This document shows, piece by piece, positions 29,705 to 33,180 of a stretch of 36,103 nucleotides of DNA. The notes beneath the pieces are model-generated. The model was not told the DNA's origin and searched no databases. It saw only the letters and a program-made list of their open reading frames with translations. Source of the stretch: Phycisphaerae bacterium (lineage in GTDB: Bacteria; Planctomycetota; Phycisphaerae; UBA1845; PWPN01); contig JAFGKA010000020.1 in NCBI GenBank assembly GCA_016928855.1, positions 1 to 36,103 of the forward strand. The letters are read 5' to 3'. A program made the translations under genes and the position numbers. Positions within the stretch are counted from its first letter, which is position 1; the number at the start of each line of letters is the position of its first letter.

Positions 29705-29783
29705 ATTGCGCCGCCGTGGGTGTATCCTAGCGGTGTCAAGCGATTCGGATTGCATGCGGGCTGACTGGGAATCGAGCGAGGAG

Positions 29784-30854
29784 ATGGTTGTGGCCAGACG
29801 TCGAGCGCATGGAGGCCTCCGCCGGATACTGGGTGGCCTGTTTTTCGTGACTTTGGTAGCCGGCGCGTTCTGGTGGGGGCTGCCGTTGTTCCAGGCAGCG
29901 AACAAGGCGACCGGCCCTTCGCCCGATAACCTGTTGCGAAGCACGGAGACCCCTTCGGGCGGTTCCGCGAGCCTGCGGCCGCCGGTTGAGCCTGTACTCA
30001 AGCCCGTTACCCCGACGCCGACGAGTTCCCCCGCAGGGGGTGGAACGTCTGCCCGCGTGACCAGCCCTTCGGTGCCGACCTCCCAGCCGTCGCCGCGCGT
30101 TGGGGCCGAGCAGGGTCTGGCGGACTACCAGGCGGGGTTGGCGGCCTTGGCCCGCGAAGACGCTGTCGAAGCCCGTTCCCGTCTCAGCGCCGCGATCGAG
30201 CGAGGGCTGGCCCGGCCCAGGGCCGAGGACGCCCGGGCGAAGCTCTCCGAGATCAACGAACGGATGATCTTCTCGCCGGAGCGGCTGACCGAGGATCCGC
30301 TCGTCGACAGCTACAGGGTCAAGCCGGGCGACAGTGTGGCGAAAATTGCCAAGGCGCACAGTATCTCGGAGGAATTCGTTGCTCAGGTCAACCGCCTGCC
30401 CAACAAGGATTTCATCCGCGTCGGGCAGACACTCAAGGTGGCGAATGGTCCATTCCATGCGGTGGTGGACAAGTCCGATCACGAACTGAGCATTTTCCTG
30501 GGAAACACGTTCATTCGCAGCTTTCGTGTCGCCCTTGGTGAGCACGGCAGCACGCCCACCGGCAAGTGGAACGTCAAAGACCACCTGGTGAATCCGAGCT
30601 GGGTAGACCCGCGGACCGGCAAACGATGGCATGCCGATGATCCGCAGAATCCCATCGGTGAGTACTGGATCGGCCTCGAAGGCATCGAGGGCGATGCGGT
30701 CGGTCAGGTCGGCTTCGGCATCCACGGCACGATCGACGAGGCGAGCATCGGCCAGGATGTCAGTATGGGGTGTATCCGGCTCGCCGCCAAGGATATCGAA
30801 CTTGTCTACAAGCTGCTGGTACCTCGCCAATCGACTGTGATCGTGCGCGACTGA
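29784..30854 (+). CDS. L,D-transpeptidase with LysM domain
   Basis: 356 residues from ATG 29784; GTG 29790, 6 nt after GAGGAG, is an equally good start. N-terminal membrane anchor (LRRILGGLFFVTLVAGAFWWGLPLF) then a Pro/Ser/Thr-rich linker, a helical region (about 115-165), a LysM repeat (YRVKPGDSVAKIAKAHSISEEF...VNRL...VGQTLKV) and a YkuD domain with HGTIDEASIGQDVSMGCIRL, which supplies the catalytic His and Cys. Periplasmic peptidoglycan cross-linking or lipoprotein attachment enzyme. The 15-nt gap to the next gene suggests co-transcription. Confidence 0.92.
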   Translation: MVVARRRAHGGLRRILGGLFFVTLVAGAFWWGLPLFQAANKATGPSPDNLLRSTETPSGGSASLRPPVEPVLKPVTPTPTSSPAGGGTSARVTSPSVPTSQPSPRVGAEQGLADYQAGLAALAREDAVEARSRLSAAIERGLARPRAEDARAKLSEINERMIFSPERLTEDPLVDSYRVKPGDSVAKIAKAHSISEEFVAQVNRLPNKDFIRVGQTLKVANGPFHAVVDKSDHELSIFLGNTFIRSFRVALGEHGSTPTGKWNVKDHLVNPSWVDPRTGKRWHADDPQNPIGEYWIGLEGIEGDAVGQVGFGIHGTIDEASIGQDVSMGCIRLAAKDIELVYKLLVPRQSTVIVRD

Positions 30855-31407: not shown

Positions 31408-33180
31408 ATGCGGCTACGATTCAGCTCTTTGGTCAGCGTTTCGGTTTTTCTGATGCTCTCGTCGGCGGCCTGTGAGCTGTTCGACCCCAATCAATGGAAG
31501 GCGACCGACGGGACAAGCGTCGAGCCGGCCAAGCCTGAGCCGGTGCTGGCGTACTCGGACGCCGGCGATGCCGCGGGGCAGGGTGTCTGGGCCGCCGATA
31601 CAGGAACGGTCGCGTCGGTTGCCTACCTTCGTGGAAACCAGAACATGGCGGTGGGGGGCTACGGTCTCGTCATCGGGCTGGATGGTGGGGGCAGCTCGAC
31701 TTGCCCGCAGTCCGTGGCGGAGTACCTTCGCAAGGAGATTCGGCGCACCCAGCTCGGCGCTTCACCTACGGTGTCGCACGCCATTTCGCCGGACGACCTC
31801 ATCAAGAGCCCGCACACTGCGGCGGTGATGGTCATGGGCGAGATCCCCGCGGCGGCCCTGAAGGGCCGTCGTTTTGATGTGTTCGTGCGGGCGGTCGATC
31901 AGGACGTGAAATCGCTGGCCGGCGGTACGCTGCTGCCGTGCGATCTGCGGCTCCTGTCAACCGGAATGCGGCCCGATCCGGAAGGGCGGCTGCTTGGCCG
32001 GGCGGCCGGGCGGGTGTTCACGAACCCGTTCTCACGGGACGGTGACACCACCAGCGACAGCGATCCGCGGGAAGGGCGGGTCCTGGGCGGCGGATGCAGC
32101 ACCAACGAAGACCGGCGAGTCGCGCTGAATCCGGTTTCGCCAAGCTACTCGATCGTGCGCGAGGTGGCCCGGTCGATTAACAATCGGTTCGGTCCGACAC
32201 ATAAGAGCGCGGACCCACTGAGCCCATCGAGCGTGAAACTGAGCGTGCCGCCGCAATACGAAGGCCGTGAGAGCGAGTTCCTGGAACTGGCCACGCACAT
32301 TCCGCTGGCTACCGGCCGGGAGATGATCGAGTTGCGTGCCAAGGCGCTGAGCGATGATTTGGCGCGTCCCGAAGCTCCGTACGAGCGAACATCGCTGTGC
32401 CTCGAGGCGATCGGCCCTTCCGCGATCCCGTTCGTCCGAAAGCACTATACGCATCGACAGCGGGCGACGAGCTATTTCGCGGCCCGCGTGGGTGGCCGCC
32501 TCGGCGACGATCTGGCAATCGAGGTGCTGCGCCAGCATGCGGAAGAGCGTGATGGTTCCTATCGCCAACCAGCCATCGAGGAGCTTGGTCGCATCGAGGT
32601 CGCGCCGGCCATGGTGACTTCGGCTCTGCGGGGGTTGCTGGAGGATGACGATCCGCGGATTCGCATCGCGGCCTACGAGTCGTTGCGGCGGCGCGACGAT
32701 CCTGTTGTGCAGAGCTATCGGGTGGGCGAGGAGAATTTCGTGCTCGACGTGGTGGCGAGCAAGGGCTCCGGGCTGATCTATGCTCGGCGCACGGGTGAGC
32801 GGCGTATCGTGCTGATCGGCAGTTCGATTCGCTGCCGGCCGCCGCTGTTTTATTCGGGCACGGATCGTCCTGTCACCCTGTCCGCGAACGGCGATGCGGA
32901 GAAGATCACCCTGGTGCGTCGCTTTGACGACGGCCGGCGTATCTCCGATCCGGTCCAGGTTTCGCTTGACGTGTCGGAGTTGGTTCGCGTGCTCGGTGCG
33001 GATCTGGCACCGGGCGGGTCGGGCGGCCTCGGTGCCGATTACGGCCTTGTGCTCGACATCCTTTCCGAATTCTGCCAGTCCGGCGCGATCCTCGCGCAGT
33101 TCCGGCTCGAACAGACGAGTGTGACGGACTTGCTCGGTCCGATCGAGCCGATGGTCCGGCCGGAAACCGACGAGTTATAG
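31408..33180 (+). CDS. FlgI (P-ring)-like lipoprotein with HEAT-like repeats
   Basis: 590 residues. Lipoprotein signal with lipobox SAAC and C22. Residues about 60-330 carry FlgI features: MAVGGYGLVIGLDGGG, VMVMGEIPAAALKGRRFDVFVRAVDQDVKSLAGGTLLPCDL, SIVREVARSINNRFG. Residues about 335-440 are alpha-helical HEAT-like repeats (ERTSLCLEAIGPSAIPFVRKH, DLAIEVLRQHAEE, TSALRGLLEDDDPRIRIAAYESL). The end is beta-rich. No flagellar genes are near. True flagellar P-ring proteins are shorter (about 370) and have an ordinary signal peptide, so this is likely a surface or envelope ring protein of other function. Confidence 0.8.
   Translation: MRLRFSSLVSVSVFLMLSSAACELFDPNQWKATDGTSVEPAKPEPVLAYSDAGDAAGQGVWAADTGTVASVAYLRGNQNMAVGGYGLVIGLDGGGSSTCPQSVAEYLRKEIRRTQLGASPTVSHAISPDDLIKSPHTAAVMVMGEIPAAALKGRRFDVFVRAVDQDVKSLAGGTLLPCDLRLLSTGMRPDPEGRLLGRAAGRVFTNPFSRDGDTTSDSDPREGRVLGGGCSTNEDRRVALNPVSPSYSIVREVARSINNRFGPTHKSADPLSPSSVKLSVPPQYEGRESEFLELATHIPLATGREMIELRAKALSDDLARPEAPYERTSLCLEAIGPSAIPFVRKHYTHRQRATSYFAARVGGRLGDDLAIEVLRQHAEERDGSYRQPAIEELGRIEVAPAMVTSALRGLLEDDDPRIRIAAYESLRRRDDPVVQSYRVGEENFVLDVVASKGSGLIYARRTGERRIVLIGSSIRCRPPLFYSGTDRPVTLSANGDAEKITLVRRFDDGRRISDPVQVSLDVSELVRVLGADLAPGGSGGLGADYGLVLDILSEFCQSGAILAQFRLEQTSVTDLLGPIEPMVRPETDEL

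Follow-up and report, generated by a model that had tools for sequence, protein, structure and literature searches.

The open reading frame under study lies in a 36,103-nucleotide stretch of a Phycisphaerae contig (the whole of this stretch is called the window in the following) and encodes a conserved, genuine protein of 590 amino acids (Table 1). Pfam assigns residues 70-299 to the flagellar P-ring protein family FlgI (PF02119; profile positions 4-224 of 343, 87 bits at a cut-off of 25, E 1e-24) and a region around residues 381-433 to the HEAT_2 family (42 bits, cut-off 27.7). The NCBIfam model for FlgI (NF003676) gives only 70 bits, which is below its curated cut-off of 300 bits. Matches to both FlgI and HEAT_2 are present in all 54 aligned homologues, which bears out the HEAT-like repeats that a first-pass annotation had read from the sequence alone.

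Table 1. Coordinates of the gene and its predicted parts within the window.
Feature	Positions	Strand	Evidence
Whole gene, FlgI with lipobox and HEAT insert	31408..33180	+	ORF; Pfam FlgI and HEAT_2; homologues in relatives
Predicted lipoprotein signal peptide and lipobox, residues 1-22 (..LSSAA-C22)	31408..31473	+	Invariance of Cys22 after a hydrophobic stretch
Predicted unstructured tether, residues 23-65	31474..31602	+	Low AlphaFold pLDDT; poor conservation
FlgI upper inner-ring (IRU) and outer-ring (OR) region, residues 66-300	31603..32307	+	Structural alignment; hhalign
Inserted HEAT-repeat block, residues 301-432	32308..32703	+	HEAT_2; matches to alphaRep and HEAT structures
FlgI lower inner-ring (IRL) domain, residues 433-570	32704..33117	+	hhalign; separate domain model

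An AlphaFold model built from the 54 homologues has a mean pLDDT of 88 and is confident outside the signal peptide and the tether; there, values are mostly below 60 up to about residue 60, and below 50 for residues 29-54. The four best Foldseek matches of the full model are FlgI chains (E 6e-15 to 5e-14), and residues 66-300 of the model superpose on residues 20-244 of FlgI (7cbl/8z5n) with a Z of 16.6 (VIA-align). The FlgI features suspected at first sight have therefore passed the comparison with solved FlgI structures in addition to the Pfam search. The IRU and OR region also aligns to canonical FlgI in hhalign with a probability of 99.9 and an E of 7e-35. The HEAT block does not match the canonical FlgI profile (hhalign probability 0.7); residues 301-432, approximately, resemble HEAT and alphaRep structures instead, with Z up to 9.9.

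In published FlgI the IRU consists of the mature residues 12-159, the OR of residues 1-11 and 160-230, and the IRL of residues 231-346 (PMC8298488). The profile of residues 431-575 of our protein can be aligned with the C-terminal end of the 22 canonical FlgI proteins with a probability of 91.5, an E of 8.7e-7 and a score of 47.9, while the best of 60 column-shuffled profiles reaches 23.7 and the reversed profile 18.6. A separate model of residues 431-590 has a pLDDT of 94. FlgI is absent from the top 50 Foldseek matches of this domain model and was found by a second-look aligner, in which FlgI 247-363 is the top structural match (Z 6.1, 2.6 A over 76 residues; the next match has a Z of 4.2). 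Because a Z of 6.1 is weak alone, the assignment as IRL is based on this match together with the profile match and the collinear domain order. The "beta-rich end" described in the first-pass annotation is thus a real domain, not an extra one but FlgI's own C-terminal domain. As the IRL follows the HEAT block, the repeats are inserted within a whole FlgI and not appended to it as a fusion, which is how they had been seen before; a truncated FlgI with a C-terminal HEAT fusion was rejected for the same reason. On the evidence of profiles and models the protein is a complete FlgI in which a HEAT solenoid, about 130 residues long, sits close to the beginning of the IRL.

The lipobox at the start of the protein, also proposed beforehand, holds up in the homologues: its Cys (Cys22) is present in 54 out of 54 members but in none of the 22 canonical FlgI proteins. 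The residue at position -1 is usually Gly, and the lipobox pattern fits 34 of the 54 sequences in its loose and 20 in its strict form. With this Cys following a hydrophobic signal the protein is predicted to be lipidated, that is, to be a bacterial lipoprotein. In a joint alignment of both groups fold-core residues such as G30, V68, D85, G100, G120 and A194 are kept in all 54 members. K63 and K95 of FlgI are lysines which face or contact the flagellar rod (PMC8298488); K63 is found in 17 of 22 canonical FlgI proteins compared to four of the 54 members, and K95 in 19 of 22 compared to eight of 54. With the rod-facing lysines mostly gone and a lipobox in place of the ordinary signal peptide, the sequence argues against a function as a genuine P-ring protein. 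In the phylogenetic tree the 54 members form a single clade apart from canonical FlgI (local split support 1.0, stem length 0.98).

Among the ORFs scanned in the window no flagellar gene was recognised, in agreement with the first-pass annotation, but the genome does possess flagellar genes elsewhere. The host genome (G000) has FlhA and, on a separate contig, a flgG-flgA-flgH-flgI-flgJ cluster including a canonical flgI; its FlgI was assigned by Pfam and the neighbours were read by eye from the ORFs. The ORF between flgA and flgI is read as flgH and is separate from the gene studied here. A genome check for flagellar genes, which had been proposed earlier, therefore places our gene outside the flagellar set. 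Searching G000 for FliF yielded no match at E 1e-3; because FlhA and flgGAHIJ are present this is no sign of flagellum loss, and a divergent FliF or an assembly gap may explain it.

Searching 294 genomes of the phylum with the profile, we found full-length members across the class to which the window belongs, as well as in several families from outside this class; elsewhere in this sample there are partial matches only, mostly to canonical FlgI or HEAT proteins. The protein has a match in 99 of the 101 genomes of the window's order, in most of them at full length and in a few as fragments; in G045 and G061 the match is weak. From the class as a whole 236 genomes were drawn, nearly all at least 95% complete. 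A FlgI-profile match is present in 235 of them and a FlgI-HEAT-like match in about 231 (about 98%, counted from our own table), and only a few have a canonical-strength FlgI match alone. About 52 of the 236 are without a canonical-strength FlgI match and have a single weak one (E about 1e-14 to 1e-26), as is typical of the variant studied here; five of these (G044, G075, G077, G227 and G320) were confirmed by direct protein search, while the rest were judged solely by match strength. Three of the five, G227, G320 and G075, keep the gene and lack canonical FlgI, FlhA and the rod/hook C-domain, and the assembly of G227 is a single contig with a completeness of 99%. Thus the gene does not depend on a flagellum. 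G044 and G077 do carry FlhA, in G077 as a fragment. Most of the named relatives in a 15-row alignment scan belong to assemblies of Phycisphaerae or of other Planctomycetota; a small number are titled Alphaproteobacteria or Actinomycetes, which we take as putatively misassigned bins. No plasmid or phage record matches the protein, and a mobile or plasmid/phage gene was rejected.

The strongest clue from the genetic context is invisible from the window alone: in most related lineages the gene is linked to smc. Loci were deduplicated and counted where the sequence extended far enough. Of the 72 such loci outside the window's order, 69 have smc as the next gene downstream, on the same strand and mostly at a distance within about 250 bp; inside the order this applies to 2 of 47. 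The identity of smc was confirmed with TIGR02168. The three outside-order loci without an adjacent smc are L188, L198 (smc 2.8 kb away) and L069, and in L156 the called smc ORF runs into the end of the gene, probably due to an early start codon. In the host genome smc is found on another contig. Apart from smc, the commonest neighbour in 20 distant loci is common to only four of them, so the smc pairing stands out against a gene order which is otherwise scrambled across the same distances. Besides smc no widely conserved neighbour exists in about 120 loci, and no flagellar operon context was noticed among the loci examined. Within the window's order a conserved operon was sought in 20 loci and none was found, and the eight smc loci of this order have no common upstream gene that we could see. 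An old pairing with smc which was mostly lost in the window's order would fit both arrangements. The window's order keeps the gene with the linkage mostly lost, so the pairing is not obligatory. Five loci of this order (L099, L105, L106, L111, L115) have, 59-162 bp downstream of the gene, an ORF which by eye looks like a lipid A acyltransferase.

To our knowledge FlgI is known only as a flagellar bushing. We consider it probable that our protein represents an ancient FlgI paralogue which was repurposed for a flagellum-independent housekeeping job in the cell envelope. In the broader wording of a flagellum-independent envelope scaffold the claim is likely. The non-flagellar envelope protein of planctomycetes suggested by the first-pass annotation therefore remains the best reading, as the gene lies outside the flagellar set and is kept in genomes without a flagellum. 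Those few members that keep K63 or K95 count against repurposing. A FlgI paralogue may have become an envelope scaffold by giving up its contact to the rod and acquiring a lipid anchor together with a HEAT surface for docking. The protein would be exported and lipidated, and its flexible tether would keep it in the periplasm. Its FlgI part could self-associate, perhaps to a ring or an arc on the peptidoglycan, with the HEAT block facing outward as a docking platform. The outer-ring domain of FlgI resembles OmpA-type peptidoglycan-binding domains (PMC8298488), a likeness which would suit a scaffold seated on the cell wall. The P-ring is a 26-fold assembly; whether our protein forms a ring is, in our estimate, an evenly balanced question.

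The linkage to smc may reflect a role tied to chromosome segregation or division; we regard such a connection as possible but less likely than not. SMC is a cytoplasmic protein, so direct contact with a protein predicted to be exported to the periplasm is unlikely. Any link would be indirect, through shared expression or through a joint role in segregation and division. The most specific version, a periplasmic ring derived from the P-ring and encoded with smc, which in planctomycetes would help to link segregation of the chromosome with constriction of the envelope or with budding, we hold to be unlikely.

The same data could also describe a lipoprotein that works as a monomer or small oligomer, binding peptidoglycan via its FlgI outer-ring fold and a partner via the HEAT block without forming any ring, the smc linkage being an old gene order kept for transcription. 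The OmpA-type likeness of the OR domain reported in PMC8298488 suits this reading too, as does the window's order, which mostly lost the smc linkage and kept the gene. However, the protein retains each of the three FlgI domains by which subunits contact one another, and the remaining gene order around the gene-smc pair is scrambled over the same distances, so that we consider this alternative possible but doubtful.

Flagellar motors of other phyla are known to have accessory rings, and one could imagine the protein as a second ring of the planctomycete motor, namely a lipid-anchored collar stacked onto the P ring, to which the HEAT block would add further periplasmic structure. Its FlgI fold and the co-occurrence of its gene with canonical flgI in nearly every genome of the window's order speak for such a collar. 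Nevertheless it is improbable given that the gene persists in G227, G320 and G075 without the three flagellar markers, that the loci examined show no flagellar operon context, that the rod-contact lysines are mostly gone and that the linkage is to smc. Equally improbable is a ring around another trans-envelope machine, for example a pilus secretin or a non-flagellar type III system. The FlgI OR domain resembles secretin N3 domains as well (PMC8298488), and in three genomes that carry our gene (G357, G366, G374) an FlhA/SctV-like gene occurs while the rod/hook domain is missing, but the roughly 120 loci show no widely conserved neighbour except smc, and G227, G320 and G075 keep the gene in the absence of FlhA/SctV. 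In G357, G366 and G374, which are also without the canonical FlgI, the FlhA/SctV-like gene may belong to a non-flagellar type III system. Finally, HEAT repeats combined with smc linkage are reminiscent of condensin HEAT (HAWK) subunits, which are located in the cytoplasm and bind the kleisin of SMC, but the conserved export signal with its invariant Cys argues against a subunit of this type.

Among known proteins canonical FlgI (PF02119; 7bgl, 7cbl, 8z5n) is the closest likeness to the repurposed paralogue which we favour: IRU, OR and IRL occur in the same order, and Gly, Asp and Ala residues of the fold core are conserved. Our protein differs from FlgI by a lipobox Cys where FlgI has an ordinary signal peptide, by the HEAT insert of about 130 residues, by the loss of K63 and K95 in most members, and by a gene which lies outside the flagellar operon and is kept without a flagellum. 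As a HEAT solenoid the insert is nothing unusual and is like those of HEAT_2, PBS-lyase HEAT and alphaRep proteins, but here it is embedded in another fold and in a predicted exported protein. With FlgH of the flagellar L-ring the protein shares being a lipoprotein of an envelope ring system by prediction (PMC8298488), whereas its ring-protein matches are to FlgI and no Pfam FlgH match was reported. In the open literature searched we found no description of a FlgI-HEAT lipoprotein, and the main text of a study on essential genes of Planctopirus limnophila (PMC10632474) does not mention flagella, the P-ring or SMC.

A FlgI paralogue with a lipid-anchor signal and a putative docking insert is thus a near-core gene of the class, kept even in members that have lost the flagellum. 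Annotation based on profiles will call it a "flagellar P-ring protein", and this may wrongly imply flagella in non-flagellate planctomycetes. The division machinery of planctomycetes is unusual, and the smc linkage offers a specific, testable tie to chromosome segregation or division.

Two further regions of the window may be mentioned. Two genes upstream of the FlgI-HEAT gene, at positions 29706-30854, lies an envelope gene combining LysM and YkuD (L,D-transpeptidase) domains. Between 19665 and 24068 a 4Fe-4S protein is encoded near two MinD/ParA-like ATPases with ferredoxin-type Fe-S domains, which resemble carriers of the Mrp/NBP35 type.
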